A program made the translations under genes and the position numbers. Shown one piece after another: positions 4,181-50,154 of a stretch of DNA of 50,275 nt. Within the stretch, counting starts at the first letter, position 1. Every line of letters starts with the position of its first letter. Location of the stretch: assembly GCA_018063245.1 (NCBI GenBank), contig JAGPBS010000007.1:1-50275 (forward strand), written 5' to 3'. The notes beneath the pieces were generated by a model. It was given only the letters and a program-made list of their open reading frames with translations, ran no database searches and was not told where the DNA came from. Source of the DNA: Alphaproteobacteria bacterium. Lineage in GTDB: Bacteria; Pseudomonadota; Alphaproteobacteria; JAGPBS01.

Positions 4181-5467
4181 ATGTCATTGGTTAAATTTTT
4201 ACTACCCCCTCAATCAACAGAAAAACCTGAAGAAAAAAAGCCTCTTGATCTCAAGATGGAAAGACCTGAATCTAAATTGCATCTTGCTCTCCTCAGCCAA
4301 TATGCAGCTGAATTTAGGGAAAAACCTCTTGCTGAAAGAACAGTATACCTCAAAGCTTTTGCAGATGCCTCCTCTCCTACTTTAATAGAAGCACTCTCCC
4401 GTGCACTCGATATGGAATTGAGATTAATGCAACATGAAGATACAGTTTTAGACATTTTTACTGAAATGAGCGCCCTCTGTTCAGCTGACAATACCGTTGC
4501 AATTGAAATCTTTAATTCAATTTTTAAGCCAATCATCCAAAGCGCAGCAGCTCTCAATAAAACAACGATATTTTTTCAATCCTTTCAACAAATAATAAAT
4601 CTTTGTGCTGGAGACCCAGTACTCTGTGAAATGATAGGACTTTGGTATGAATGCAAAATACAAAATCCTGCAGTACTCGGAGCTACATTACAAATACCTT
4701 CTTACATCAAACATATAGATATTTGCACATTAAATGACGAGGAGTTCATGAACTTCATTGAAGCTCTTAAAAAGAACACAACCCTCAAAAGTTTAACTCT
4801 TCAAGGTATTGACACTGATAGAGTCATCGCTCTCGCTGAAATTCTTAAAGAAAATAAAACTCTCATAAGTCTTAATCTATCACATGTTAATGTGAGTGAT
4901 TTTGGTATTGAATCACTCGGTGAATCACTTAAAATGAACAAGACGTTAAAGGAACTTCATCTTAATTCTACCACTATTGAATATGGAATAAGATGGATTG
5001 CTCAAGCCCTTATACTCAATCAAACACTCTCAAGCCTCGACCTTAAGTCTTGCAAGATACCTGATGTCGGCATCAAATGTATCGCATCTGCTCTTACCAA
5101 AAACACATCTCTTCAAAAACTGAACCTCTCCAGCACAAATCTGAACAATGAAGGATTAAATGCTCTCGCTGAAGCTCTCAAAGTAAATAATGTGCTCGAG
5201 AGTCTTGATCTTAGTCATAACAATATTGATTCCGCAAACGCAACATTCATCGCTGAATCTCTGAAAGTCAATAAATCGCTAAGGTCCCTCAATCTGTCTG
5301 GCAATAGGATCACTGATGCTGGGGCATTTGCACTTGCTGAAGCGATCACACTTAATCCATCTCTTACGCGTCTTGAGATAAGGGGCAACAGTATGAGTGA
5401 CATCTCTAAAAGAGCGCTTGAAGAAGCCTTCGCCCAAAACCCATCAATCGCAAGTATAGATACTTAA
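4181..5467 (+). CDS. Leucine-rich-repeat protein, ribonuclease-inhibitor type
   Basis: Predicted 428-residue soluble protein. Residues 1 to about 175 form a helical region without a recognised domain. From about 180 to 420 there are roughly eight consecutive 28-residue repeats of the form LxxLxLSxNxIxDxGxxxLAEALKxNxx, the pattern of ribonuclease-inhibitor and NLR-type LRRs, which are much commoner in eukaryotes. No signal peptide or membrane segment is visible. GAAAGGA precedes the ATG. It differs in repeat class from the LRR protein at 297-1610, so the two are not simple duplicates. Such proteins in host-associated bacteria are often secreted effectors, but nothing here shows secretion. Confidence 0.8.
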   Translation: MSLVKFLLPPQSTEKPEEKKPLDLKMERPESKLHLALLSQYAAEFREKPLAERTVYLKAFADASSPTLIEALSRALDMELRLMQHEDTVLDIFTEMSALCSADNTVAIEIFNSIFKPIIQSAAALNKTTIFFQSFQQIINLCAGDPVLCEMIGLWYECKIQNPAVLGATLQIPSYIKHIDICTLNDEEFMNFIEALKKNTTLKSLTLQGIDTDRVIALAEILKENKTLISLNLSHVNVSDFGIESLGESLKMNKTLKELHLNSTTIEYGIRWIAQALILNQTLSSLDLKSCKIPDVGIKCIASALTKNTSLQKLNLSSTNLNNEGLNALAEALKVNNVLESLDLSHNNIDSANATFIAESLKVNKSLRSLNLSGNRITDAGAFALAEAITLNPSLTRLEIRGNSMSDISKRALEEAFAQNPSIASIDT

Positions 5468-21790: not shown

Positions 21791-23245
21791 TCAATCCCGC
21801 GCCATCCTTTTTGCTCTCAAATGCTTCTCAAACAAGTCACTGAATGTATTCTCTTTTTTGCCCCTCAATCCTGGATCATTTCCCGTGATCATTTTATCGA
21901 GCATTCTGCCGAAAAGACTTAGGACATCTACCTGATCATCATGTTTTCCTTGTGGAAATGAAATAATTTCAGCAATCAAATCATGGCACCAAAGAGCATT
22001 TTTTGGCACATAAATCTTCCCCATTGCCATGCGCGCTTGAATCGCGCGTGCTCTACTCGCCTTATCAATTGCCGATACAAATTGTTCCCGGTATCCGTAG
22101 ATTCTTTTTTCCTGCTGGCGTTTTTGAATAAAAGGCCCCAAAGACTTTGAGATTTGTCCTGCTTCTTCTGCCCACATAATAGGCTTATATTGATTCATCA
22201 AATCAAGAAACACCTCGACCCAAACATCTGTATTGGTTTGCCCACGCCACCAATCCAGCAGAAAAATGTCATCATTGGCATTTACACCAATGACACCGTG
22301 CACTGTATAGTCACCGCCATTCGAGCTAATCGCATAGTCACTCGCACCATAAATCTTCATGCTTGAAAGATCAGGCATCTCATCATAATACCGAATCCAA
22401 TCTTCTTTAAAATAGGCACCTTCATCTGGCATTGGATTTTGCTGATAAAGGGCAGACCAATTCCGCGTTGATTGAATTTTTTTCTCAACCAATAATTGAT
22501 CGATCGACATCCACTCTGGCCACAAAGCCTCTCCCGCAGCCCGGCCCAATGGATCATTCTCTTCCGCAATCGCTTTTAAACAGACGACATCCCACTTCTC
22601 ATCTTGATGATATTTCAGAATCCGTCCTGCCAAATCATCTTCATGCCAGCGTGTTTGAATCAGAACAATGCCTGCATCTGGCTTAAGCCTTGTTCGCAAA
22701 TCAGCCAGATACCACTCCCAAATGCGATCTCTCATCAATTGCGAATCCGCCTCAACTCGCCCTTTAAGCGGATCATCAATCACAACAAAATCAGCACGTC
22801 GTCCGGTCACTGATCCCCCAACACCAACGGCAAAATACTCACCCCCTTTTTCCGTATCAAAACGCCCAGAGGCACGACTGCTTTGCGACGATGAAAAGCC
22901 AAACAGATTTTTAAAAGTTGGACTTTCGATCATACTCCGAGCTCTGCGCCCGAATCTCTCAGAAAATTCCTGCGTATGACTCGCTGAAATCACTGAATGG
23001 GTTGGATGACACCCCATGTAAAAAGGCACAAAAAGTAAATTTCCGTACGTACTTTTTGCATGTCCTGGCGGCATAAAAACCATGAGACGCTTCAGCTTTC
23101 GATCAGCCATCAATTGTAATTTTTGAATCAAATACAGGTGATGCCGAGCTGGTTTTAGCTCACCTGCATACTCACAAAAATAACGAAAGCCCTTACGGGC
23201 TCGACGTCTTTGATAAAGCTCTGTCAGAATTTTCTTAGCACTCAT
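21791..23245 (-). CDS. Phage-type terminase large subunit (ATPase and nuclease)
   Basis: DNA-packaging motor protein, 484 residues. The N-terminal ATPase has a Walker A variant PPGHAKST (59-66), Walker B VVIDDP (154-159) and the coupling motif LIQTRWHEDD (195-204). The C-terminal RNase H-like nuclease shows Asp303 in YGASDYAIS, Asp312, and HDDQVD (435-440). It resembles the phage terminases with the C-terminal domain first named in archaeal phage psiM2 (TIGR01630 type). All motifs are intact, so this is not an obvious pseudogene. Its ATG overlaps the stop of the small gene upstream by four bases. No portal, capsid, tail or integrase gene is near: nuo lies downstream and a Sel1 gene upstream. 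It could be a prophage remnant, part of a dispersed gene-transfer-agent set, or domesticated. Confidence 0.88.
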   Translation of the reverse strand: MSAKKILTELYQRRRARKGFRYFCEYAGELKPARHHLYLIQKLQLMADRKLKRLMVFMPPGHAKSTYGNLLFVPFYMGCHPTHSVISASHTQEFSERFGRRARSMIESPTFKNLFGFSSSQSSRASGRFDTEKGGEYFAVGVGGSVTGRRADFVVIDDPLKGRVEADSQLMRDRIWEWYLADLRTRLKPDAGIVLIQTRWHEDDLAGRILKYHQDEKWDVVCLKAIAEENDPLGRAAGEALWPEWMSIDQLLVEKKIQSTRNWSALYQQNPMPDEGAYFKEDWIRYYDEMPDLSSMKIYGASDYAISSNGGDYTVHGVIGVNANDDIFLLDWWRGQTNTDVWVEVFLDLMNQYKPIMWAEEAGQISKSLGPFIQKRQQEKRIYGYREQFVSAIDKASRARAIQARMAMGKIYVPKNALWCHDLIAEIISFPQGKHDDQVDVLSLFGRMLDKMITGNDPGLRGKKENTFSDLFEKHLRAKRMARD

Positions 23246-23550: not shown

Positions 23551-23682
23551 TTTCTCCTCCCCCTCTATTTAATATAACAGATAATTTATTTTGAATGTTA
23601 ATTTTTATTCATAAAATATTGACACTTCTATTTTGGAATGGAAAGAAACCCTCAAAATCACTTCTTCCTTATGGAGAGTCAT

Positions 23683-25818
23683 ATGTCTTCTATACAGCCC
23701 ATCACTCTTTATACCTATAGAAAAACAGCTCAATCTCAGCCTTGCGTTGTTTTAAAGCACACAATTCTGCGCAATCAATTTACATTCTTTTTAAGCATCA
23801 AAAATAAGAATCTTCTGGAAAGACACATCATCTATTGTCCCAATCCCTTACCTGCTGACATTTCACCTCTTTGGCGAAGATATATTGAAGCCTGTGCTTA
23901 TGCGCTCAACTCATCACATCTGAATCAATATGTTGATCCTGAACATCAAAAAGCTGAACCAATGAGTCTTGCAAAAGCACATGAACGCTTGACTGAGCTG
24001 CACACAGATCTTTTCATCAGATATGGTCGATACGGCAGCAAACCCAATGATCATTTTTTAGAAACGCTCACAACGCACATGATTGGCATGCTCACGATGA
24101 ATTCAACTGACTCATCAGGGGACCGGGCATTTGCATTCTTTAAATTAGCCTCTAGATGCGGACATAGCGATGCTCAATATCATGTGGCTGAGTATTATGG
24201 CATAGGCCTCAGGCGCGAACAAAATTTTGAAAGAGCTTTTCATTATTTTAATCGCGCTGCGGATCAAGGTCATCCTGAGGCACTTATCAATTTGGGGTGT
24301 TTTTATTTTAATGGATTCAGAACCCAAAGAGATCTCGAAAGAGCAAAACATTACTTTCATCTGGCTGCCGCGCAAAATCACCCCCTGGCCATTCAGAATC
24401 TCAGCCTCTGTTATACAGAAAAGATAAATGTTCCAGAAAGTTTAGAAGAATCCCTTGCGCCCTATCAAAACCTGATTGTAATCTCAGGCCCAGATCATGA
24501 TCGAAACGGCATATTACAATTTTGCGAATTGCTAGCAAATGCAATGCTTAAAGGTATAAATGGGCAGAAAAACATAAGATGCGCTATCGGTCTTTTAAAT
24601 ATTGTCATTGCACATAATGCACAGTCAGAAACGCCAGGTAATATTTATCACTCAGCTTGTTTATCTTTAGCAAAACTTTATCAAAGAGGATTTCAAAACC
24701 GCTATTTCTTTTTAAAGCCGCAGCGCGATAAGGCTTACCAACTCTTCTTAAAAGCCTTCCCACTTCCAGAGGCTTTTTACCGATGCGCTCACCTCTCAAG
24801 AGCACTGATGAGAGATCATGAAAATCTCATCATCCCTATCAATCCCCGGAACTTTCTTACATATCTAATTAAAGCAGCAGACTTAGGCTACAAAAAGGCG
24901 CAATTTGAACTTGGAGAGATTTATGCACCACAAGATATAAAGAATTCACTGCATTATTATTCTCTGGCTGCTGCACAAAATCATCCTGAATCTATAAACA
25001 TTCTAGGATGCGTCTATTATTATGGCACTGGTAAAAAAGTCAATTATAAAAAAGCCTTTTCTCACTTTGTCAGAGCTGCAGAATTGGGGCACGATTACGC
25101 ATTTGCAAGTCTAGCGATATGCTATGAGCATGGTCATGGAGTCCCTAAAAATCTTGAAACAGCTCTCCATTACTTTAGGTGTTTTGCTCAAATCTCACCC
25201 AGAAATGCACGGCATGAACAGCTTGATGTAAACTGTAAAATTTCTCTTGCTAGAGCCTATCAAACGGGTGATGCTGGTCAAATTCATTTTCAAAAAGCTC
25301 TCCAACTTTTAACAGAAGTCACTCAGATCAACACTCCCATCAACAAAAATTACAGTGCTTTGGCAGAAGCGCACGCAGCTCTTGCAGATATTTACACCAA
25401 CGGTCATTTTGATCATACCTTTACGCTCCCAATTGATCAAAAAAAGGCTGTGTCTCACATTCAAAAAGCTGTTGAATTTTATCAAGATATCCAACCTTCT
25501 GACCCAGAAGTCCAAAGGAAAAAGTCTTCTTTTCAGTTCAGGCTTGCCCTTTTATACTTAACAGGTGTGGGCACAGAGGGAGATATCTTGCCACGTGACC
25601 TTGATCAATATATCCACTATCTGGAACAAGCGGCAATCAATGGAAATTCAAGTGCTCAATATCAGCTCGCTTTTCATTACGAAAATGGACTTCCAGAAAT
25701 TATTGAATCAAATCAGTTAGTTGCTACAATTTATTATTTATCTGCTGCAACTCAAAATCATGATGAGGCCTTCGCCTGGATCGATCAAGTCATGCCAAAA
25801 AAAGAACAGAATTCCTGA
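23683..25818 (+). CDS. Large Sel1-repeat protein
   Basis: Predicted 711-residue protein with tandem Sel1-like (TPR-type) helical repeats, 35-40 residues each. A first block lies at about residues 148-250 (for example FERAFHYFNRAADQGHPEALINLGCFYFNG), a second at about 405-510 (NYKKAFSHFVRAAELGHDYAFASLAICYEHGHG) and a third near 615-700. The N-terminal 140 residues show no known domain. ATG at 23683 has GGAG six bases upstream; the frame is open to 23638 where spacing is poor. No signal peptide is seen. Sel1 proteins act as scaffolds and are frequent in bacteria living with protists; any role here is inference. It is followed by a smaller Sel1-like gene on the same strand. Confidence 0.8.
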   Translation: MSSIQPITLYTYRKTAQSQPCVVLKHTILRNQFTFFLSIKNKNLLERHIIYCPNPLPADISPLWRRYIEACAYALNSSHLNQYVDPEHQKAEPMSLAKAHERLTELHTDLFIRYGRYGSKPNDHFLETLTTHMIGMLTMNSTDSSGDRAFAFFKLASRCGHSDAQYHVAEYYGIGLRREQNFERAFHYFNRAADQGHPEALINLGCFYFNGFRTQRDLERAKHYFHLAAAQNHPLAIQNLSLCYTEKINVPESLEESLAPYQNLIVISGPDHDRNGILQFCELLANAMLKGINGQKNIRCAIGLLNIVIAHNAQSETPGNIYHSACLSLAKLYQRGFQNRYFFLKPQRDKAYQLFLKAFPLPEAFYRCAHLSRALMRDHENLIIPINPRNFLTYLIKAADLGYKKAQFELGEIYAPQDIKNSLHYYSLAAAQNHPESINILGCVYYYGTGKKVNYKKAFSHFVRAAELGHDYAFASLAICYEHGHGVPKNLETALHYFRCFAQISPRNARHEQLDVNCKISLARAYQTGDAGQIHFQKALQLLTEVTQINTPINKNYSALAEAHAALADIYTNGHFDHTFTLPIDQKKAVSHIQKAVEFYQDIQPSDPEVQRKKSSFQFRLALLYLTGVGTEGDILPRDLDQYIHYLEQAAINGNSSAQYQLAFHYENGLPEIIESNQLVATIYYLSAATQNHDEAFAWIDQVMPKKEQNS

Positions 25819-38512: not shown

Positions 38513-40390
38513 ATGAATACTCTCGTCGATCAAAATCCAGATAAAATCAAATGGGGACTGATGATTGGTGCTATCGGCGTTGTTTATGGCGACATCGGTA
38601 CAAGCCCTTTATATGCGCTTAAAAGTACATTCATCATGGGCGGCCTCAATGTAACAAATATGAACGTACTCGGCCTCTTAAGTGTTTTCATCTGGACGCT
38701 CATCATGATTGTCTCCGTCAAATATGTGAGCCTTGTTTTAAAAGTTGACAACCATGGTGAAGGCGGAATTCTTGTTTTATCTTCTCTCTTTGAAAGACTT
38801 AAAATCAAACGCGTTGGTCATTTCCCAATGGTTCTTGGCATTATTGGCGCGGCTCTTTTCTTTGGAGATGGAAGCATAACACCAGCGATTTCTGTTCTAT
38901 CGGCTCTTGAGGGATTGCATTTAATCTCCCCTACGCTCTCAAACAACGTCGTTTTCTTATCAATTGTGATCTTGACTCTCCTTTTTGCTATCCAAAAAAC
39001 AGGCAGCGGTAAATTAGGTAATTATTTTGGCCCCATCATTTCACTCTGGTTTATTGTCATCGCCCTGTTAGGTGTCATACAGATATACCAAAATCCACAT
39101 GTGCTACTGGCGCTAAATCCTTATTATGCCCTTCATTTTCTGACACATCATGGACTTGCTGGATTTGTGATTCTCGGCGGAACAATTCTTGTGGTCACAG
39201 GGGCTGAAGCGCTTTATGCTGACATGGGACATTTTGGACGCAAACAAATTGAACTCTCATGGACTTTTTTTGTTTTGCCTTCATTGGTCCTCAATTATCT
39301 AGGACAAGGTGCACTCCTTCTCTCTCAACCTGAAGCAATTTCTAATCCATTTTATAATTTAGTACCTCCAGTTTTTCTTTATCCAATGATCATCCTTGCA
39401 ACGCTTGCAACGATTATCGCCTCTCAAGCTGTGATATCTGGTGTTTTTTCAGTCGCTTGGCAGGCAATCATGCTTCATTATTTACCACGCATGCAAGTCA
39501 TGATGACATCAAACGATCAAATGGGCCAAGTCTATGTTCCTGTTGTGAATTATATTCTGTACTTTATGACAATTGGCGCTGTGTTGCTTTTTAAAACATC
39601 TGATAATTTAGCTGTGGCTTATGGACTGACTGTTGCAGGACTCATGCTCATTACAAGTGTTTTAATTTATTTGCTTGCTCATCATGAATGGCACTGGAGT
39701 AAATTAAAACTTTGTCTCGTTTTTATACCTTTAATCGCAATTGATGCAATCTTTGTTTTATCTAATATGATCAAAATTGTTGAAGGCGCCTGGTACTCTT
39801 TCTTAATCGCGCTTGCAGGCTCTTATGTCGTATGGGTTTGGGTTCAAGGCAATCGAGCCAGGAATGATCAGCGTCTTCCGATGCAACGCAATCTAAAAGC
39901 TTTTCTGCATCATCACGCACAGCTTCATCATGAAAGAATACCCAATACAGCCATTTTCATGTGTCGTTCTCCTAAAATTGTGCCTGACTCTTTAACAGTA
40001 CATCTCACGCACAATAAGTTTTTGCATGAAAAAATGATCTTTATTTCAATTCTAACAAAATCAGTTCCCTACATCCCAAAACGTGAAAAGTTTTCTTATG
40101 AACATATTGAAAAGAATGCCTACCAAATCGTTGCAAACTTCGGGTTTAAAGAAGTACCTGATCTGCACAAAATTGTTTTCTGGGCACGAGAGAAAGGCAT
40201 TTTGTCTCCTGATGAAGAGGTCTCGTTCTTCTTGAGCAAATATATCCCGATTGCCTGTCATCATTATAGGCTCAGCGGCTTTAATGAAAAATTCTTTATG
40301 TTTCTTTCCAAAAACTCTGTTCCGAACTATGACTTCTTTGAAATCCCGCATGAAAAAGCTTTAGAGCTTGGAATCAGGTACCGCATATAA
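38513..40390 (+). CDS. kup: Low-affinity potassium uptake protein Kup
   Basis: Inner-membrane potassium importer of the KUP/HAK/KT family, 625 residues with about twelve helices and a C-terminal cytosolic domain. The signature GDIGTSPLYA is at 26-35; ALFFGDGSITPAISVLSALEG (split) and VTGAEALYADMGHFG follow, the latter with the conserved Glu. Length is typical (E. coli 622). The gene converges on the RND gene with only five bases between stops. Confidence 0.95.
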   Translation: MNTLVDQNPDKIKWGLMIGAIGVVYGDIGTSPLYALKSTFIMGGLNVTNMNVLGLLSVFIWTLIMIVSVKYVSLVLKVDNHGEGGILVLSSLFERLKIKRVGHFPMVLGIIGAALFFGDGSITPAISVLSALEGLHLISPTLSNNVVFLSIVILTLLFAIQKTGSGKLGNYFGPIISLWFIVIALLGVIQIYQNPHVLLALNPYYALHFLTHHGLAGFVILGGTILVVTGAEALYADMGHFGRKQIELSWTFFVLPSLVLNYLGQGALLLSQPEAISNPFYNLVPPVFLYPMIILATLATIIASQAVISGVFSVAWQAIMLHYLPRMQVMMTSNDQMGQVYVPVVNYILYFMTIGAVLLFKTSDNLAVAYGLTVAGLMLITSVLIYLLAHHEWHWSKLKLCLVFIPLIAIDAIFVLSNMIKIVEGAWYSFLIALAGSYVVWVWVQGNRARNDQRLPMQRNLKAFLHHHAQLHHERIPNTAIFMCRSPKIVPDSLTVHLTHNKFLHEKMIFISILTKSVPYIPKREKFSYEHIEKNAYQIVANFGFKEVPDLHKIVFWAREKGILSPDEEVSFFLSKYIPIACHHYRLSGFNEKFFMFLSKNSVPNYDFFEIPHEKALELGIRYRI

Positions 40391-40395
40391 GCATA

Positions 40396-42732
40396 TTACT
40401 TTGCAGCGAATTTCATTCCGATAGTCTGGCAACGATTTACAATCCAGCCCTTCACTTGATCTAAAACAACATGAATAATCGGCAGAAAAATGAGAGCCCC
40501 TAACATATTTGCAAAAAACATAAAGCTAAGCAGACGCCCCATATCTGATTGAAACTTCAATGGTGAAAAATTCCAGATTAAGGTTGAAAGAGACAAAGTA
40601 ACACCCGTGAAAAAGATCGCAGCCCCTGTTGTTTGAACGGCTTTACGATAGGCAGATGGGAAAGGATCTCCTTCTTTCAAAAAGCGTTGTAATTGAGCAT
40701 ATAAATATATGCCATAATCCACACCAATACCAACACCAAGCGCTGCAATCGGCAAGGTCGAAATTTTAAGCCCAATATCCATCATCCCCATTAAAGCATT
40801 CGTCATCAATGAGACCAAAACCAACGGCAGCAGAATTGATATAACACCAATGATCGATCTAAATGAATAATAACAAATAACAAAAACAGCCAGATAAATG
40901 CCAAACACGATACTAAATTGTGCATCACGCACTACATCATTCGCACTTTTCAAAACAGTAAGGTTGCCGCCTCCCACTTCAAAGTGAACCAAATCGCTCT
41001 GATGATTTTTTAAATAAGAATCGATATAGGCGTAAATGTTTTCAATTGTTTCGTATTTATGATCCTTTGCATAAAGCGTAATCGGCATAACAGAGCAATC
41101 TTCATTAAGCAGTCCTGAGGATGTCTCAATTGATGAAATCGAGCGAACCAAAACGTATTTATTGCGCACAAGAGAGTTCCATTTTACAAAACCCTCATTC
41201 CACCCCATTGTTGATCTCTTCATAATATTTGGCAATGAATAAGAATTTGTCACAAGGGGATGTCCACGCAAAAACCACTCAAACCTATCAATTTCTTTAA
41301 CAATCGGATATTGAATACAACCATTCGCTTCTGTTTTTGCATAGATCTGAACCGTGTCAATACCAATATTAAATTTTTCATTAATGAAAAAAACATCTTG
41401 ATTATAAATGCTATTCTTGTGGAACTCTGGCGTTCCAATACCCTGATCCCCAATTTTAACTTCGCCAGCCTTATAGTATGAAACACCCAACAAAACGATA
41501 AAAAGCAGAAAAATAATATAGCGAGAAGAATGATTCAATAATTTTTCCATCCATGATAATGGGTAGTTAATAAAAAGATCTTCTAGATGAATCCCTGATT
41601 TAACAGGACAAAAACTCAAAATCAACGGCAATAGAAATAGGTTAGCAACAAGAATGCACGCAATACCAAGAGTGGCTGTATAAGCAAGGTTTTGCAAAAT
41701 AGGAATCGGGATGAGATCAATGGCCAAAAAGCCAATACCATCTGTTAAAAGCGCCATTGAGCCTGGGAAAAAAAGCTCTTTAAAGCTTTGTTGCGCTGCC
41801 TCTATTTGACTCAGCCCATCTTCACGTACTTTATGAACATACTTATTAACCATTTGCAACCCATGGCTAACAGCAATAGCAAAAATAAGAAATGGCAACA
41901 AGATTGAAAAAGGGTCGAACCAAAAATTAAAAAAACACATAAGGCCAAACTGCCAAACCAATGCTATCATTCCAATAAAAACAAGCACTAAAGGGAGCAC
42001 GAACGACCTTATGTAAAAATAGAGAAGCCCAATTGTCATCACAACAGAAAGAGCAAAAAAGATAAAAATACTTGTCTTTGCATTCGACAAGCTCCCTAAT
42101 ATTTTTGTAAAGCCGATCATATGCATTGAAATAGTAGGCCCCGTATATTTAACTCTCAGCTGATCCAATTTTGATGATAAATCAACATAGTCAATATTTT
42201 TTGATTCACCCAAATCGATTGAGATCATCGCTGATGTAAAATCTTTGGACACCAGAAACCCAAGATACTGAGATTTCATAATATTGCTTTTGACAATCTC
42301 AAAATAATCAGATGTGGGCTGAAAATCAGCAGGTATCAAGTTGCCTCCAGCAAAACCATCTTCAATCACTTCAATAAATCGAGCATTCGGTGTAAAGAGT
42401 GATAGAATACGGTCTCTCTCAACATAGGGCAGATAATACATTTCGTCCGTTAGACTCTTAAGGACATTCATAAAGTTCGGCGTAAAAATTGTTCCTTCTT
42501 TCGAATGGAGTGCAATCAGTATTTTATTAGCCCCGCCAAAATCAGCGCGATATTTTTTAAAAACATCAATCATCGGATGGTTTTTTGGCAACTGTTGATC
42601 GAACCCCTGATTGACAGTTAAATGTAGACTTTCATAAAAGCAAAAAAGAGTGAAAACAAGAAACAGACCTATAATTATAGACCTAAATTTTAACAAAAGC
42701 GCAGCAATTGCATTCAAGGAGATTCGTTTCAT
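40396..42732 (-). CDS. RND-superfamily (MMPL/HAE3-like) transporter
   Basis: Large inner-membrane transporter, 778 residues, with the two-fold RND plan: a helix at about 13-33, a periplasmic domain, about five helices between 205 and 400, a second helix and periplasmic domain after 405, and five helices from about 605 to 760. The second block contains LGVGIGVDYGIYLYAQLQRF, typical of MMPL/HAE3 proteins, which move lipids and other hydrophobic molecules rather than drugs. Its ATG overlaps the stop of the YCF48-like gene (ATGA). No membrane-fusion protein or TolC gene accompanies it, which distinguishes it from tripartite drug pumps. The substrate is unknown. Confidence 0.85.
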   Translation of the reverse strand: MKRISLNAIAALLLKFRSIIIGLFLVFTLFCFYESLHLTVNQGFDQQLPKNHPMIDVFKKYRADFGGANKILIALHSKEGTIFTPNFMNVLKSLTDEMYYLPYVERDRILSLFTPNARFIEVIEDGFAGGNLIPADFQPTSDYFEIVKSNIMKSQYLGFLVSKDFTSAMISIDLGESKNIDYVDLSSKLDQLRVKYTGPTISMHMIGFTKILGSLSNAKTSIFIFFALSVVMTIGLLYFYIRSFVLPLVLVFIGMIALVWQFGLMCFFNFWFDPFSILLPFLIFAIAVSHGLQMVNKYVHKVREDGLSQIEAAQQSFKELFFPGSMALLTDGIGFLAIDLIPIPILQNLAYTATLGIACILVANLFLLPLILSFCPVKSGIHLEDLFINYPLSWMEKLLNHSSRYIIFLLFIVLLGVSYYKAGEVKIGDQGIGTPEFHKNSIYNQDVFFINEKFNIGIDTVQIYAKTEANGCIQYPIVKEIDRFEWFLRGHPLVTNSYSLPNIMKRSTMGWNEGFVKWNSLVRNKYVLVRSISSIETSSGLLNEDCSVMPITLYAKDHKYETIENIYAYIDSYLKNHQSDLVHFEVGGGNLTVLKSANDVVRDAQFSIVFGIYLAVFVICYYSFRSIIGVISILLPLVLVSLMTNALMGMMDIGLKISTLPIAALGVGIGVDYGIYLYAQLQRFLKEGDPFPSAYRKAVQTTGAAIFFTGVTLSLSTLIWNFSPLKFQSDMGRLLSFMFFANMLGALIFLPIIHVVLDQVKGWIVNRCQTIGMKFAAK

Positions 42733-43772
42733 TCTATCACATCCCTCACCATCGGAAGGGATGAGAGATGAACTTTTTCAATACCACCATCTCCACAAAC
42801 AAGTGCTAAATCCGGGCTCAGCAAAAAAACATCTGAGAGATTTTGACTTGATGCTAATTGATGAGCTGAAAAACTTTCATCATCAACTGATCCCATATAT
42901 AAATGGCCTGAGGCACCTACCAAGATTTTTCTGCCCTTCATCTGATCATAACCAAACAAAGAAGAAGCAGGCTCTAATGTCTGAGATTGAAACGCATTTG
43001 TTGTGAGATCATAAAAAGATAAATTTCCTTGTAGCCCCAACAAAACAAATCGTCCCTCACGCTCAGGATAGATCCCAAAAATTGATTTTTTATCAAGGGC
43101 ATGGATTTCTGTAAAAGTAAACTCACCCTCTGGAGACAAAACTGCTTTTCTGATCGAGCCCATTTCACCAACCAACAAAAATTCATCATTTCCAAGTGGT
43201 GTCATATCATACAAATGAGCATTATCAAAAGGTAGCTTAATTCTTGACCAAGACTCACCTTCATCATGCGAAACTAAGAACAGGCCATAGGCCCCAATCG
43301 CAATCACGTACTTCTCAAATGGATAGATTTTAAAAATGGGCTGTTCCCAGTCTGGAGCTTGATGAACAAGGCTCCAATTTTTGCCACCATCTTCTGTTTT
43401 TAAAATTTGACTATCATAACCTGCTGCAAAACCCACTAAAGGAGTCTTAAAACAAATTGTTGTCAAAGTTTGTTCTGTTGGTGTTGATTGACTATGAATC
43501 CAGGTTTCACCGAGATCTTCTGTTGATAAAATCGTTCCGAACTCACCTACTGCCCAAATTTTTTGAGTTGTTTCATCTTGCAAGGCAAAAGATAGGATCA
43601 TTGAATGTTCAGGATTTCTCTCATCATGTTTGGCTTGATCAGAATGATTGAAAACACCTGAGACGTGCGCAAAAGACTGAATTGGAGTTACGACCAAAAA
43701 CAAACCCAAAACCAAAAAATAGGTTTTCAGATGCTTTATTCTTAATCCATATCCTCTATAAAATCGATTCAA
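42729..43772 (-). CDS. Exported YCF48-like beta-propeller protein
   Basis: Predicted 347-residue exported protein with a signal peptide ending near the start (hydrophobic YFLVLGLFLVV, then QSFA-H). At least seven repeats of a BNR/YCF48 kind can be read, for example AVGEFGTILSTEDLGETW, AAGYDSQILKTEDGGKNW, AIGAYGLFLVSHDEGESW and LVGEMGSIRKAV, suggesting a seven-bladed propeller. There is no ATG before the signal peptide; TTG at 43772 has GGAG six bases upstream and is chosen over TTG 43784. The photosystem role of plastid YCF48 does not apply; here it sits with DUF1302, DUF1329 and RND genes, probably as a periplasmic scaffold. Confidence 0.78.
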   Translation of the reverse strand: MNRFYRGYGLRIKHLKTYFLVLGLFLVVTPIQSFAHVSGVFNHSDQAKHDERNPEHSMILSFALQDETTQKIWAVGEFGTILSTEDLGETWIHSQSTPTEQTLTTICFKTPLVGFAAGYDSQILKTEDGGKNWSLVHQAPDWEQPIFKIYPFEKYVIAIGAYGLFLVSHDEGESWSRIKLPFDNAHLYDMTPLGNDEFLLVGEMGSIRKAVLSPEGEFTFTEIHALDKKSIFGIYPEREGRFVLLGLQGNLSFYDLTTNAFQSQTLEPASSLFGYDQMKGRKILVGASGHLYMGSVDDESFSAHQLASSQNLSDVFLLSPDLALVCGDGGIEKVHLSSLPMVRDVIE

Positions 43773-43801
43773 TCCACACTCCAAACAATATCTGACACAT
43801 A

Positions 43802-45247
43802 TTACCTTAGTCCGGCACGACGTAAAGTCTCTGGCTTAAAGTCTGCCGCTGTTACATTTGTGCTATAATTATAAACAGGCTCTTGGTTATCAAATCCATT
43901 GGCTGTGTATCGACCTGATCTTAGGTCATACACGACTTCAAGTGTTGTCCAAAAAACCGGGACTTCATAATAATTGATACAATGAGCCTCCGCAACGCGC
44001 CAAATCGTGCCCCTACTATCATAATGATCTGCGACGAGTATCGACCAGCTGTCTTCATCAATTAAAAAAGTTCTTTTTGAATAAATGTGGCTTGTTCCAG
44101 ACTTTAAAGTTCCTTCCACAACCCAAACACGATGCAATTCATACCGCATATGCTCTGGGTTTAAATGACCGGGCTTGATAATGTCATCATACTTTAATTT
44201 GTCTGAATGAACCTTATATGCATTATAAGGAACAAACATTTCTTTACGTCCTAAAAGCTTCCATTCGTAACGATCTGGTGCCCCATTAAACATATCCAAT
44301 TGATCATTGGTCCTAAGACCATCTGATGCTGTGCCTGGGTTATCATAAGCAATATTTGGCGCTCTACGAACGCGTCGTTGGCCCGGGTTGTATGTCCAAG
44401 AATGGCGAGGCTCTTTAACTTGATTGATTGTTTCATGAATCAGCAAAATCTCACCTGAAAGCCTTGCAGGTTCAACAATTCTCTGCGTAAAGAAAGCAAA
44501 GATATTATCCCCTTCTTGATAGCTATCTAGGGCATAATTCATGAGCAAATCGTCTTCAAACATGATCATTGTATATGAACCGCTTGGCGTTGGGTTGGCT
44601 TGCCCTGAACGTCTTTTTACTTTTTCACCGCGATATCGAAGCAAATGGTTCCAAACTGCCTCTAATCCATCTTTTGGATTTGGAAAAGGCGATGTGATTC
44701 TAGCGCCTGAAACACCATTGCCATCTTCAATCAGCTTTGCCTTTTGCGCGTTCACTGCAACGGCCTCATAAACCTTTTGTGGATAGGCTGTACTCCGATG
44801 CGTTGGATAGATATTCATATAGTAAGTAGGGTATTTTTTGAACATTTCAATTTGCCCAGGCGACAACTTATCTTGATATTGATCAACCGTGGCACCAGTG
44901 ATTTTAAACAAAGGTTTTTCGCCATCAAAAGGATCTGGATGGTGATCACCTTTTTTATACCCTGGAATTGGCTTTTGAATGCCGCCATCCCATACAGGAA
45001 TCGTTCCTTCTGCATTTGCATTTTTGATTGCCCCAAGTGCATTTTCAACAATAGGCTCAACCTCAGCGACTTGCTCTTCTTCTACAACAGGCATTTCTTC
45101 TTCAATACGTGCTTCTGTTGTTGCTGTTAAAGGCTGATCCTCAGCAAAAACAACAGCAGAAAATGAGCATGATACAATACCCAATAGCAAAGCTAATAAT
45201 ACAGGCTGTTTACAAGTTTTGAGATCTTGATTCTTCTCTATTGTCAT
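43802..45247 (-). CDS. DUF1329-family exported protein
   Basis: Predicted 481-residue periplasmic or outer-membrane-facing protein. A signal peptide (LLALLLGIVSCSFSAVVFA-ED) is followed by an unusual Glu/Val-rich linker of about 35 residues, then the DUF1329 domain with GTIPVWDGGIQKP, PNPKDGLEAVWNHLLRYRG, RRAPNIAYDNPGTASDG and a C-terminal RRAGLR. The family has a LolB-like fold by established analysis, consistent with lipid binding. AGGAAC precedes the ATG. It follows the DUF1302 gene by 35 bases; the two families are nearly always neighbours. Confidence 0.88.
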   Translation of the reverse strand: MTIEKNQDLKTCKQPVLLALLLGIVSCSFSAVVFAEDQPLTATTEARIEEEMPVVEEEQVAEVEPIVENALGAIKNANAEGTIPVWDGGIQKPIPGYKKGDHHPDPFDGEKPLFKITGATVDQYQDKLSPGQIEMFKKYPTYYMNIYPTHRSTAYPQKVYEAVAVNAQKAKLIEDGNGVSGARITSPFPNPKDGLEAVWNHLLRYRGEKVKRRSGQANPTPSGSYTMIMFEDDLLMNYALDSYQEGDNIFAFFTQRIVEPARLSGEILLIHETINQVKEPRHSWTYNPGQRRVRRAPNIAYDNPGTASDGLRTNDQLDMFNGAPDRYEWKLLGRKEMFVPYNAYKVHSDKLKYDDIIKPGHLNPEHMRYELHRVWVVEGTLKSGTSHIYSKRTFLIDEDSWSILVADHYDSRGTIWRVAEAHCINYYEVPVFWTTLEVVYDLRSGRYTANGFDNQEPVYNYSTNVTAADFKPETLRRAGLR

Positions 45248-45282
45248 GTCAGTTCCTATAATTTCGTCCCTAATTCAATTGA

Positions 45283-47025
45283 TTAAAAAGAATATTTCAC
45301 TTCTGCAGAAATGTGATCCCTGTCACGTAAAAGATGGTAGCGTCCCGCTCCAAAATAATTTGTGTACTGTACATTAAACTGCCAACTATTTTGCCATGTT
45401 GAATCAAAACCAATCGAAATCGCTTTTTGCCTTTCCCTAAAAGTAGCCAAAGGATTTGGCGTTATTCCAGAAACGTCATGCCGAAAAGAAAGCTTCGGAT
45501 AAACATTTATATCACTGAAAAGATTAAGATATTCTAACTTTGTCGCAAGAACATATCCCCAAGAAAAGGCTGTTGGAAATGCGCTTGATCTTTCAACACC
45601 TTCAGCGCCTGCTAAAACTGGGTTTCCGCCTCTGAATGTTCCTAATGCATCAAGACGTAACTTTGATTTACTTGGCATATCATTGATATAGTTAAAGCCG
45701 ACCTCACCCACAAGAGTCACTTGATCTGCCTTTAAATTAGGCCCCAAAACTTTCGAGAGGGTTGTTTGCCCTGTGACAACGTCATATCGCTTATAACCAT
45801 GCATTGTTGTATTTTGTAAAGCATTAATACCACCCAATGTGTTAATTCCTCTATCGCGCAAGACTTGATTGGTTGCAAGAGCGGCAACAGGCACACCCAT
45901 AAATGCACTCAGTGGACTCAATCCAGCTTGAATCAATTCAATCGAATGGATTTGCAGCGGTTGATCTTGACGATAATTCACCTCGCCTTGCCAAGCAAGT
46001 CCTAATGAGCCAATCTCTGTATTAAAACTCCCGCCATAGGTTTTGATATCTTCTGGATATTCTAGAAAATAACGTGAGCTTGAAATAATTGTGGCTGGAA
46101 CACCAGATCCTATTCTCGCTCCAATCACTGGAAAACGACTGTGATAGCGAGTATGATAAAAGGCGAATTCAGTATTATTAATCTCTGGAGAAAAATATCG
46201 AAGGGCAATCCCATATTGCCCAAAATCAGATGGATTATCTGGTCTTCCTTTTCTCAAAAAGAGATTGTTACTTGTTCCAAAACCCAAATATATTCTCTCA
46301 CCGCCAGGACTTGCAAAGTTGTTTGTACTGAAAAGTGTCCCTCGTGCTTCAAGCTCTGATTTTTCCCACTGAAATTGATAGAATCCTTCGACGCTCAGAT
46401 TCTCAGTAAGCCCTGCATTCACATTCAGTACCGGAAAGGGCAAAAGAGCATCCCTCACTTCCGAACCAGGTGTTCTGATTTTTGTTGCATCAACTGGATT
46501 AAAGTTATTAATCCCGTTTCGTATAAAGGTACTTTCTCCCCAATTGATCGCCTGATTCCCGAATTTAAAAGCGAGCTTATGCGTCTCAGCAACTTCCGTA
46601 TTCAAATAAACAAAATGATCCAGTAAATCGATATTGTGCGCAATTCGTTCCTTGGCCTCGTCTACGAGTTGCGATTTTTCATTATTATATGGATCGAATA
46701 AGTAAGTAAACCGTGCAAAAGCACCAAATTTCTCTCTCGTTTCAATATTTAATTCATGCGTTGCTTTAAATACAGTTGCGGCAATGCCTCGGTGATAATT
46801 TAGGTCCCCCTCATCTGAATTGAGAGAAGGTGCTGTCCCACCATTTGCAATCCCAATAAGATCTTTATCTCTTTTGGCGACTCTGGCAATTGAGCCGAAT
46901 GAAACAGTTGAATCAAATGTTACTTTTGTATTTTCATCTGTCCAAGTTGCAGCATTTGCAATAAAAGGAGAGACCGCCGATAAAAGAAAAGTAAAACCAG
47001 ATATAATGTTAATTTTTTTAGACAT
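45283..47025 (-). CDS. DUF1302-family outer-membrane protein
   Basis: Predicted 580-residue beta-barrel protein. A signal peptide (KINIISGFTFLLSAVSPFIANA-A) is followed by alternating amphipathic strands and ends in AEVKYSF, the terminal aromatic pattern read by the Bam machinery. Features such as NWGESTFIRNGINNFNP and RYFSPEINNTEFAFYHTRY are characteristic of DUF1302. The frame is open to 47082, but ATG 47025 (MSKKINII) starts directly at the signal peptide with AAGG upstream. It is the first gene of a four-gene operon and diverges from the SDR gene. Confidence 0.86.
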   Translation of the reverse strand: MSKKINIISGFTFLLSAVSPFIANAATWTDENTKVTFDSTVSFGSIARVAKRDKDLIGIANGGTAPSLNSDEGDLNYHRGIAATVFKATHELNIETREKFGAFARFTYLFDPYNNEKSQLVDEAKERIAHNIDLLDHFVYLNTEVAETHKLAFKFGNQAINWGESTFIRNGINNFNPVDATKIRTPGSEVRDALLPFPVLNVNAGLTENLSVEGFYQFQWEKSELEARGTLFSTNNFASPGGERIYLGFGTSNNLFLRKGRPDNPSDFGQYGIALRYFSPEINNTEFAFYHTRYHSRFPVIGARIGSGVPATIISSSRYFLEYPEDIKTYGGSFNTEIGSLGLAWQGEVNYRQDQPLQIHSIELIQAGLSPLSAFMGVPVAALATNQVLRDRGINTLGGINALQNTTMHGYKRYDVVTGQTTLSKVLGPNLKADQVTLVGEVGFNYINDMPSKSKLRLDALGTFRGGNPVLAGAEGVERSSAFPTAFSWGYVLATKLEYLNLFSDINVYPKLSFRHDVSGITPNPLATFRERQKAISIGFDSTWQNSWQFNVQYTNYFGAGRYHLLRDRDHISAEVKYSF

Positions 47026-47071
47026 ACTTGAGAACCTTACTTTATGTTTATTTCTTTTTACTTTTTTCACA

Positions 47072-47100
47072 TTTTTAACCATGAATCAAGTAAGATTCAA
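47072..47100 (-). promoter_or_regulatory. Putative promoter of the DUF1302 operon
   Basis: On the minus strand TTGAAT (47095-47100) is followed 17 bases later by TAAAAA (47072-47077). It lies in the 105-base divergent spacer and overlaps the inverted repeat at 47082-47099. Confidence 0.33.
47082..47099. promoter_or_regulatory. Possible operator: inverted repeat in divergent spacer
   Basis: TGAATC, six bases, GATTCA forms a perfect 6+6 palindrome between the divergent DUF1302 and SDR genes and covers the putative -35 region of the former. It has the size of a site for a dimeric regulator, but no regulator gene is adjacent, and a short palindrome can occur by chance. Confidence 0.3.
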
Positions 47101-47130
47101 CTATGCAAACAAAGAAAAGGAAGAATCCAA

Positions 47131-47883
47131 ATGTTTAAAAACAAAACGATCATTATCACTGGAGCCGCAACTGGTATTGGATATGCCTGCGCAGAGATAT
47201 TTGCTGAGGCTCACGCAGTCGTTTACCTACTCGATATTGACACTGAAAAAGGTTCACAAGCAGCAAAAAAACTCTCCGAGCTTTATTCAACATCTGTTCA
47301 CTTTAAACAGGTCGATGTCTCTCAAGAAACACAAATCAATGACTTTGTAAACTCGCTTTCAGACATTCATGTTTTAGTGAATAATGCAGGCACCATTTTT
47401 TCAGCTGATTTTTTAACACTAAGCTCCCAAGATTTTGACAGAGTCCTCTCCGTTAACCTAAGAGGAGCCTTTCTGATGGGACAAGCAGTTGCTAAAAAAA
47501 TGGTTGCAAATGACATTAAAGGATCGATTGTCAACATGTCATCAGTCAATGGCGTCATGGCGATTCCAAACCAAGTCCCTTATGTTGTCTCAAAGGGTGG
47601 CCTCAATCAGCTTACAAAAGTCATGGCCTTATCCCTTGCACCACATGGTATCAGAGTCAATGGTGTTGGGCCTGGTTCTATTCTCACAGAGCTTCTGAAG
47701 GTTGTTATGACTGATGAAGCCGCCCAAAAAAGAATCCTTTCGCGAACCCCAATGGGTCGATGTGGTGAGCCTTCAGAAATTGCAAAAGTTGTGAGATTCT
47801 TGGCAAGCGAGGATGCCTCTTACATGACAGGCCAAACAATTTATGCAGATGGTGGGCGACTTGCTCTTAACTATGTTGTTTGA
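47131..47883 (+). CDS. Short-chain dehydrogenase/reductase (SDR)
   Basis: Classical SDR of 250 residues. TGAATGIG (10-17) binds the nucleotide; Asp35 after the second strand suggests NAD rather than NADP. NNAG (84-87), Ser138, Tyr151 and Lys155 (YVVSK) complete the catalytic set, and the C-terminal MTGQTIYADGG is typical. The frame is open from 47044 but ATG 47131 has AAGGAAG upstream. The substrate, a secondary alcohol or ketone, is unknown; divergence from the DUF1302 operon hints that it may act on the compound handled there. Confidence 0.85.
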   Translation: MFKNKTIIITGAATGIGYACAEIFAEAHAVVYLLDIDTEKGSQAAKKLSELYSTSVHFKQVDVSQETQINDFVNSLSDIHVLVNNAGTIFSADFLTLSSQDFDRVLSVNLRGAFLMGQAVAKKMVANDIKGSIVNMSSVNGVMAIPNQVPYVVSKGGLNQLTKVMALSLAPHGIRVNGVGPGSILTELLKVVMTDEAAQKRILSRTPMGRCGEPSEIAKVVRFLASEDASYMTGQTIYADGGRLALNYVV

Positions 47884-47956: not shown

Positions 47957-49096
47957 ATGATTACGATTGGCGTTCCAAAAGAGATTAAAAACCATGAATA
48001 TCGCGTTGCCCTTACACCTGATTCAGCACAAGAACTCACTCAAGCAGGTCATAAAGTCATCATCGAAACAAAAGCAGGCGATGCAATTGGTCTAACGGAT
48101 GAAATGTACAAGAAGGCCGGCGCAACAATTATGCCTGATGCAAAAAGCATCTTTAGCGCAGCAGATATGATCATCAAAGTGAAAGAACCTCAACCTCAAG
48201 AATGTAAAATGCTAAGAGAAGGCCAAGTTCTCTTTACATACCTTCATCTCGCTCCAGATCCAGAGCAAGCGAAACTCCTCAAAGAATCGAAATGTATTGC
48301 CATTGCCTATGAAACAGTCACTGACCAAAATGGACAACTCCCTCTGCTAGCACCCATGAGCGAAGTTGCAGGACGCATGTCTATTCAAGCTGGCGCTCAT
48401 TGCCTTGAAAAAGCACAGGGAGGACGTGGTGTTCTCTTGGGCGGCGTACCTGGTGTTGCACCGGGGAATATTCTCATCATTGGTGGCGGTGTTGTTGGAA
48501 CACATGCAGCTCAAATTGCAATTGGTATTGGAGCCAACGTAACAATTCTTGATCGCTCACTCAAAAGACTAAAGGAACTTGACCAAATTTTTGGTGGCAG
48601 AGCCAAAACACTCTACTCAAACTCTGGAACCATCGATGCGTGCCTTAAAGAAGCTGATCTTGTTGTTGGCGCTGTTCTTATTCCTGGCGCGAACGCCCCG
48701 CGCCTCATTAAAAAAGCACATCTCAAAACAATGAAGCCTGGTTCTGTTATTGTTGATGTGGCAATCGATCAAGGTGGCTGTGCTGAAACATCAAGAGCGA
48801 CAACGCATCAAGATCCAACCTATGTGGTGGATGGGATTATCCATTATTGTGTTGCCAATATGCCTGGCGGCGTTGCCTCAACATCAACTTTTGCTCTTAA
48901 TAATGCAACCTTGCCTTTCAGCCTTGCCCTTGCAAATAAAGGATACAAACGCGCATTGTTAGAAGATCCACACTTGATGAATGGCCTCAATGTCTATCGC
49001 GGACAAATCACTCATGCCGCTGTGGCTGAAGCCTTGGGTGAAAAATTCAGAGATCCATACAAACTTCTGGATGAAACCTTAACAAAATGCGCTTAA
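47957..49096 (+). CDS. ald: Alanine dehydrogenase
   Basis: NAD enzyme interconverting L-alanine and pyruvate plus ammonia, 379 residues. Active-site residues known from the family are all present: Arg16, Lys76, His97 and Asp271 (in VDVAIDQGG). The Rossmann motif GGGVVG is at 176-181. AAAGGA precedes the ATG. It would let alanine feed pyruvate metabolism and supply NADH for complex I. The 3' end overlaps the next frame by ten bases. Confidence 0.94.
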
Positions 49097-50154
49097 GTCC
49101 AATGCGAAAAGAGCCCCTTATAGCGACTGTTCAATACATTATGGATAAAGCACCTGAACAGGGTGTTCCTTTTGAACTTCGAGATTGGCTTTACTGGACA
49201 CGCCTTCCCCTTCCCTTTGCACTCAATCATGTCAATATTTGGGCGCTAAAGGGATCGAAAGGCTGGTGTTTTATCGACTTTGGCATCAACCGACCTGTTG
49301 TTCAAGAGATGTGGAGCACATTACGAAAAGGAATTTTCGAAGGCCCTATTGAGGCGATGATTGCAACCCATTTCCACCCTGATCACGTCGGAAACGCAGG
49401 TTGGCTCTATGATCAGCTTTCTGAAAAGCCTCCCTTTTACATGAGTCAGATCGAATTTTTGTTCACGCGCATGATTTCACTTGATTCTGATGAGATCTAT
49501 CGTGAGCGCTTCGAAAAATATTACGGCGCTATGGGTCTTGCACCTGACATTATCGCTGAGCAAATGGAGATGGGCAATGCCTACGCACGGAATATAACAC
49601 CTGCTCCCATGCCATTCAACCGTCTAAGTGCAGGAGAAATCATCCGCTTTGCTGATCGCGACTGGCGTATTATGATTGGTGAAGGACATGCGCCTGAGCA
49701 TGTGTCTCTATATTGCGCAGCTGAAAATATCCTGATAGTGGGTGATCAAATTCTACCAAAAATCACGCCCAATATTTCGATCTGGCCTCATGAAACCTCA
49801 GCAAATAATTTAAAAGCATTTTTCAAGACGCTACCTCAATTTAAAGAGCTCCCTGAAAATGTGCTTGTATTGCCTTCACACGGCATTCCATTCACGGGAC
49901 TTCATCAGCGCATCAATGAACTCTATCATCATCACAATGAAAGATTGCAGCATATCCTCGATTTTTGTGATCATCCTGTTAATGGCGCTGAGGTGATGGC
50001 TTCACTCTTCCCTATCACGCTTGATAAGCATCAAATTTTCTTTGCTGCGGGCGAGACGATTGCTCATTTAAACTATCTCACGGACAAAAGAGATCTTTAC
50101 CGTCATGAAAATGCGCAAGGTGTATTCCTATATTGTCGAGAAAATTGTTTCTAA
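49087..50154 (+). CDS. MBL-fold metallo-hydrolase
   Basis: Metallo-beta-lactamase-fold protein of up to 355 residues. The metal motif THFHPDH shows His95, His97, Asp99 and His100; further ligands are likely in GEGHAPEH and VGDQI, and the C-terminal LPSHGIPFTGLHQRI is typical of the glyoxalase II-like branch that acts on thioesters and similar bonds. The start is unsure: ATG 49087 overlaps ald by ten bases, ATG 49102 and 49141 are alternatives, and none has a good ribosome binding site. Substrate unknown. Confidence 0.83.
   Translation: MRLSPMRKEPLIATVQYIMDKAPEQGVPFELRDWLYWTRLPLPFALNHVNIWALKGSKGWCFIDFGINRPVVQEMWSTLRKGIFEGPIEAMIATHFHPDHVGNAGWLYDQLSEKPPFYMSQIEFLFTRMISLDSDEIYRERFEKYYGAMGLAPDIIAEQMEMGNAYARNITPAPMPFNRLSAGEIIRFADRDWRIMIGEGHAPEHVSLYCAAENILIVGDQILPKITPNISIWPHETSANNLKAFFKTLPQFKELPENVLVLPSHGIPFTGLHQRINELYHHHNERLQHILDFCDHPVNGAEVMASLFPITLDKHQIFFAAGETIAHLNYLTDKRDLYRHENAQGVFLYCRENCF

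Follow-up and report, generated by a model that had tools for sequence, protein, structure and literature searches.

Organization of the locus

The window analysed here is the whole of contig C7 (50275 bases) from an alphaproteobacterial genome (1.99 Mb in 91 contigs, 100% complete), whose class was assigned from its relatives and the trees. It contains four genes on the minus strand, encoding in this order a DUF1302 protein, a DUF1329 protein, a YCF48-type protein and an RND transporter. Judged by family composition and gene order, these genes are an AmeABCD-type cassette, a system that is already described and widespread, and their products are called AmeA, AmeB, AmeC and AmeD below. A short-chain dehydrogenase (SDR) gene faces away from the cassette. 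This anatomy and the family membership by architecture are observed directly. All five open reading frames (ORFs) are intact, and the arrangement given in the first-pass annotation of the window, four co-directional envelope genes with short gaps or an ATGA overlap and a divergent SDR gene, is confirmed by the ORFs and Pfam matches.

Table 1. Features of the cassette region (positions in the window)
Feature	Coordinates	Strand	Basis or remark
DUF1302 (AmeA-like) outer-membrane beta-barrel with signal peptide	45283..47025	-	Pfam, AF2, Foldseek
DUF1329 (AmeB-like) exported LolA-fold carrier	43802..45247	-	Pfam, AF2, Foldseek
YCF48-type (AmeC-like) exported beta-propeller	42729..43772	-	Pfam, family profile
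HAE3/MMPL RND (AmeD-like) inner-membrane transporter	40396..42732	-	Pfam, NCBIfam, profile
Divergent short-chain dehydrogenase (SDR)	47131..47883	+	adh_short_C2; neighbour, outside the conserved cassette
105-bp divergent spacer	47026..47130	.	start codons and ribosome-binding site from sequence
kup gene	38513..40390		convergent to the operon, whose end is 5 bp away

The gap between the DUF1302 and DUF1329 genes is 35 bp, that between the DUF1329 and YCF48 genes is 17-29 bp, and the RND start codon and the YCF48 stop codon share a 4-bp ATGA overlap. Thus the four genes are likely to form a single transcript. No terminator-like sites were found in a scan of the three intergenic gaps. Promoter-like sites around the divergent spacer were no more frequent than in shuffled sequence; both scans performed at chance level.

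For the DUF1302 gene, the start at position 47025 is likelier than the start of the longest ORF at 47082, as a canonical signal peptide follows the former. The best start of the SDR gene is 47131, with AAAGGAAG directly upstream. These starts leave the 105-bp spacer, and the 39-bp overlap of the longest ORFs is therefore spurious. The spacer is the probable control region for both directions. The YCF48 gene probably starts at the TTG codon at 43772 rather than at the longest-ORF position 43784. Hydrophobic N-terminal signal segments can be read in AmeA, AmeB and AmeC, and AmeD carries the MMPL membrane domain. The former three proteins are predicted to be exported, and AmeD is a predicted polytopic inner-membrane protein.

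Components of the cassette

AmeA matches Pfam DUF1302 (E=4.7e-148) and no other Pfam family. Its model is a barrel (pLDDT 84); Foldseek places it closest to porins, Occ channels and AlgE, although the TM-scores of these matches are no more than moderate. AmeB matches DUF1329 (E=1.5e-155) and passes the cutoff of the Pfam LolA_like family (PF17131, 40.1 bits vs 30). Its AlphaFold (AF2) model (pLDDT 86) is similar to LolA3 of Porphyromonas gingivalis (9tp6, E=1.5e-16, TM-score 0.85 by target) and to a solved DUF1329 protein (4z48, E=5.7e-16). The LolB fold initially ascribed to this protein is thus replaced by a LolA fold, which makes the role of a hydrophobic-ligand carrier reasonable. The acidic N-terminal segment of AmeB, EEEMPVVEEEQVAEVEP (residues ~29-65), is absent from 36 relatives; it is lineage-specific and predicted to be disordered.

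AmeC matches the Pfam family PSII_BNR/YCF48 (E=3.7e-14), and a search with its family profile found solved Ycf48 structures (E=4e-35). AmeD matches Pfam MMPL (E=4.7e-19); its best NCBIfam match is HAE3 (E=9e-44), under the cutoff of that model. Among the matches listed in its genome, AmeD is the only one to its own sequence. The AmeD profile also matches the structures of MmpL5, MmpL4 and HpnN.

The first-pass annotation made a shared transport role depend on the proton-relay residues of the RND protein. The Asp-Tyr pair of TM10 is present (D672-Y673). However, TM4 has a Ser-His pair (Ser289-His290, placed as the TM10 equivalent by aligning the profiles of the two AmeD halves), whereas the TM4 pair of HpnN and MmpL transporters contains Asp. 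As the Ser-His pair is invariant in 13 of 13 aligned family members, it is no argument against the function of AmeD; the TM10 pair is likewise invariant in the family. Given the TM10 Asp-Tyr pair and the family-invariant TM4 pair, proton coupling is plausible.

Conservation and phylogeny

Conservation of the cassette was observed directly among 80 loci, the best of more than 580 profile-search candidates; the counts describe these best matches rather than the whole family. The loci span Alpha-, Beta- and Gammaproteobacteria, Desulfuromonadales, Opitutae and one metagenome-assembled genome (MAG) of Nitrospirota. In 62 of the 66 loci with enough upstream sequence, ameA, ameB, ameC and ameD follow in this order on one strand. 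Among the other four, L129 holds all four genes and failed only the strict coordinate rule. Conservation of the genes together, on which the first-pass annotation made a shared transport role depend, therefore holds for the four envelope genes but not for the SDR gene.

Identity to the closest orthologues is 55-58% for AmeB, ~45% for AmeA, ~42% for AmeD and below 30% for AmeC. Most family-invariant residues are retained: 63 of the 68 in AmeB (invariant in 36 relatives), 95/120 in AmeD, 24/28 in AmeA and 18/20 in AmeC. The window cassette groups with that of genome G100 inside alphaproteobacterial cassettes, both in the AmeD tree (support 0.94), which took in cassette-bearing alphaproteobacterial RND proteins without the AmeD sequence of Castellaniella defragrans, and in the concatenated tree of the four proteins (0.93). 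The window branch is long: in the four-protein tree it measures ~1.1 substitutions per site. A gammaproteobacterial origin of the cassette is not favoured, as it groups with alphaproteobacterial cassettes and G100 is the nearest.

In 27 gammaproteobacterial loci (of L121-L170) the cassette is fixed between pepN and the genes for NAD-glutamate dehydrogenase/pyrD (names assigned by eye from cluster representatives). Such a fixed site in the core genome suggests a general role of the cassette. The site occurs in Shewanella, Pseudoalteromonas, Rheinheimera, Colwellia and their relatives. Tandem pairs of DUF1329 genes were observed in the cassettes of a Wenzhouxiangella MAG and a gammaproteobacterial MAG (L140:5345-8805 and L166:5285-8827).

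Linkage to fatty acid genes

The genomic linkage to fatty acid genes is again a direct observation. Among the 53 informative loci, i.e. those outside the fixed gammaproteobacterial site, 17 have, at a distance of up to 6 kb and mostly in operon-like arrangements, a gene for an acyl-CoA ligase, a FadB-, thiolase- or FadE-like protein or a VolA-like lipase (PF12262). In six loci, only 5-18 bp separate the lipase gene from ameA downstream of it; PF12262 lipases are linked to VolA and to extracellular release of fatty acids. In L095, L099 and L101, ameD is followed by ligase, fadB and thiolase genes, in this order. Of 188 near neighbours, 8 carry the beta-oxidation domain 3HCDH_N; for 106 distant neighbours it is absent from the families listed, which means one occurrence at most. 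In G100, the nearest cassette relative, the end of ameD lies 18 bp from a convergent fadD gene whose product shares 52% identity with the single FadD encoded by the window genome.

The window genome itself encodes FadD, a fadA-fadB-fadE cluster, an acetate-CoA ligase and a patatin; FadL (PF03349) was not found in it. Replacement of FadL by the cassette was considered and rejected, since the class-wide comparison showed no exclusion between the two. Overall, the gene linkage favours fatty acids or similar acyl compounds as the cargo, and use over disposal, and it stops short of proving the direction. This linkage, seen across several phyla, is new evidence and points to a testable class of cargo for a system earlier discussed mainly with monoterpenes, aromatics and Tweens.

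Comparison with known systems

DUF1302 and DUF1329 are still labelled as unknown in databases, and the first-pass annotation likewise gave the operon no settled function. However, phenotypes have been published for AmeABCD (PMC6394551) and for homologues in P. putida (PMC10866462). The system of C. defragrans 65Phen consists of a DUF1302 protein (AmeA), a DUF1329/LolA superfamily protein (AmeB), a COG4447 protein (AmeC) and an HAE3 RND protein (AmeD), a composition and organization conserved, according to its authors, throughout the AmeD lineage (PMC6394551). Its deletion led to worse growth on non-functionalised monoterpenes, lower monoterpene tolerance and, after CCCP treatment, slightly stronger accumulation of Nile Red; mutant and wild type hardly differed in real-time Nile Red efflux, and growth on acetate was normal (PMC6394551). 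The window has the same four families in the same order (the comparison covers families and order). On the other hand, C. defragrans is a free-living betaproteobacterium and its cassette is part of a monoterpene-degradation island, whereas that of the window lies among unrelated genes of an intracellular-type alphaproteobacterium.

In P. putida, the same DUF1302, DUF1329, periplasmic and RND components share one phenotype: PP_0765/PP_0766 and PP_2018/PP_2019 are all required on Tween 20 as carbon source (PMC10866462). These genes are split over two loci, unlike the single operon of the window. Published co-folding of the P. putida proteins predicts weak carrier-barrel and carrier-RND contacts and a strong propeller-RND contact (PMC10866462). 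In the benzene degrader ORM2a, porin-like, DUF1329, YCF48 and MMPL genes occur together and are co-expressed in the "Nanopod" cluster (PMC13101534), which differs from the window cassette by extra stress-protein genes and by benzene as the proposed cargo. Related sets belong to aromatic-compound regulons, and in Betaproteobacteria they are regulated with solvent or aromatic stress.

HpnN and MmpL proteins resemble AmeD in the HAE/MMPL membrane domain and in lipid-like substrates. However, no DUF1302, DUF1329 or YCF48 partners are described for HpnN, and in AmeD the TM4 pair is Ser-His instead. FadL/FadD uptake, with an outer-membrane barrel and an acyl-CoA ligase, is a possible functional analogue, but AmeA belongs to DUF1302, not PF03349, and the cassette adds an RND protein and a periplasmic carrier.

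Possible mechanism and alternatives

The first-pass annotation proposed a conduit between the inner and outer membranes for a hydrophobic compound. This fits the conserved cassette, the LolA-fold and barrel models and the published work on homologues. Here we infer the cargo, direction, energy coupling and physical assembly. The RND protein AmeD in the inner membrane, driven by protons via Asp672-Tyr673 of TM10, would exchange a hydrophobic molecule with the periplasmic carrier AmeB, the propeller AmeC would dock AmeB on AmeD, and AmeB would meet the barrel AmeA in the outer membrane. Fatty acid cargo would be linked to the FadD and beta-oxidation enzymes of the organism. We give about an even chance to an AmeABCD-type trans-envelope transporter that most likely carries long-chain fatty acids or related amphipathic acyl compounds, with uptake somewhat likelier than export.

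Several observations weigh against fatty acid import. No fatty acid gene adjoins the cassette in the window, nor is one found nearby in 36 of the 53 informative loci. Homologues occur in the contexts of monoterpene, benzene and phenol genes, and thus the cargo may vary between subfamilies. In the class-wide comparison, genomes with the cassette may also have FadL, which is not enriched among them; since the two are not mutually exclusive, the cassette is not a simple FadL substitute. Finally, the authors of the AmeABCD study propose export of apolar monoterpenes (PMC6394551). A stronger form of the import model, in which the cassette is a FadL-independent fatty acid importer general across Gram-negative phyla and an ATP-parasitic alphaproteobacterium takes up host fatty acids by it, is rather doubtful. 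If import does take place, it would constitute an RND-driven route for fatty acids from the outer to the inner membrane and, in this organism, perhaps a way for an energy parasite to obtain host lipids.

One possibility, already put forward for AmeABCD, is that the system is a tolerance pump, AmeD taking toxic hydrophobes such as host antimicrobial lipids, free fatty acids or terpenes out of the membrane and expelling them via AmeB, AmeC and AmeA. The phenotype of the C. defragrans deletion mutant, including its accumulation of Nile Red (PMC6394551), the regulation with solvent or aromatic stress in Betaproteobacteria, and the profile matches to the exporters MmpL4, MmpL5 and HpnN all agree with efflux. 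However, real-time efflux of Nile Red was nearly equal in wild type and mutant (PMC6394551), growth of P. putida on Tween 20 depends on its homologues (PMC10866462), and the adjoining lipase and beta-oxidation genes suggest use rather than disposal. Moreover, the cassette lacks the membrane-fusion protein and TolC-type channel of HAE1 tripartite pumps, the partners of AmeD being a LolA-fold protein, a propeller and a porin-like barrel. Efflux is therefore a serious candidate, although on the unlikely side. A housekeeping shuttle of membrane lipids or hopanoids between both membranes seems improbable. It would explain the fixed, core-gene-like pepN-pyrD site in the 27 gammaproteobacterial loci, and HAE3 takes in the hopanoid transporter HpnN, while LolA-fold proteins serve envelope traffic. 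However, the distribution among Alphaproteobacteria is patchy, the AmeABCD mutant is normal on acetate (PMC6394551), and AmeD falls far short of the HpnN equivalog cutoff (46.9 vs 751.85 bits).

Yet another possibility is that the cassette no longer has a role and is decaying after inheritance from a free-living ancestor, as the long branch (~1.1 substitutions per site) and the reduced 2-Mb genome with ATP/ADP translocases might indicate. The four intact ORFs, the translational coupling and the largely kept invariant residues make this very unlikely. Least credible of all is a five-gene pathway in which, as proposed in the first-pass annotation, the SDR modifies the compound moved by the four envelope proteins. 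The divergent start is only 105 bp away, and SDR-like genes occur occasionally near other DUF1329 or RND loci. However, none of the 80 related loci has a recognised SDR homologue adjoining the cassette, the single match (L135) being ~6 kb off, and on this lack of synteny the SDR was rejected as a fifth component. The protein itself matches adh_short_C2 (Pfam, E=3.5e-62), and none of the NCBIfam matches shown reaches its equivalog cutoff (FabG, 199 bits vs 296). The SDR is a generic family member and not a conserved partner of the cassette.

Host context and neighbouring genes

The window genome contains two ATP/ADP translocase genes (PF03219; G000:C21:17850-19316 and C4:12213-13688, loci L172 and L173) with E-values of 2.7e-177 and 3.3e-160. 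These two genes indicate that the organism is probably an intracellular energy parasite taking host ATP, in agreement with the host association suspected earlier; leucine-rich-repeat and Sel1-repeat proteins are likewise typical of such bacteria. A translocase match at E<1e-60 occurs in 43 of the 385 sampled alphaproteobacterial genomes (one per species), and the window genome alone among them combines it with an AmeD match at the same threshold (the two lists were compared by hand). The surprise at finding the cassette in such a host, voiced in the first-pass annotation, is thus justified; the lipid exchange with a host that was also suggested there is conjectural. What makes the locus interesting is its acyl-lipid linkage together with the unusual host; the operon kind itself is known and widely conserved. 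No other genome of the same order was found among the relatives.

Two leucine-rich-repeat proteins and one Sel1-repeat protein are encoded at 15-1610, 4181-5467 and 23638-25818 of the window and are candidates for host interaction. In G100 (L176:12205-18978), repeat-rich ORFs, ankyrin-like by eye, lie upstream of the cassette; this genome has no ATP/ADP translocase match.

The neighbours of the cassette in the window encode Kup, the SDR, an alanine dehydrogenase and a metallo-beta-lactamase-fold protein. The genes for the latter two (47957-50154, plus strand) overlap by 10 bp and lie 3' of the SDR gene, and the contig ends just beyond them. A terminase large-subunit-like protein (PF03237, PF17289) is encoded at 21791-23245 on the minus strand, adjoining the complex I (nuo) operon; it is possibly a remnant of a prophage or a gene-transfer agent.

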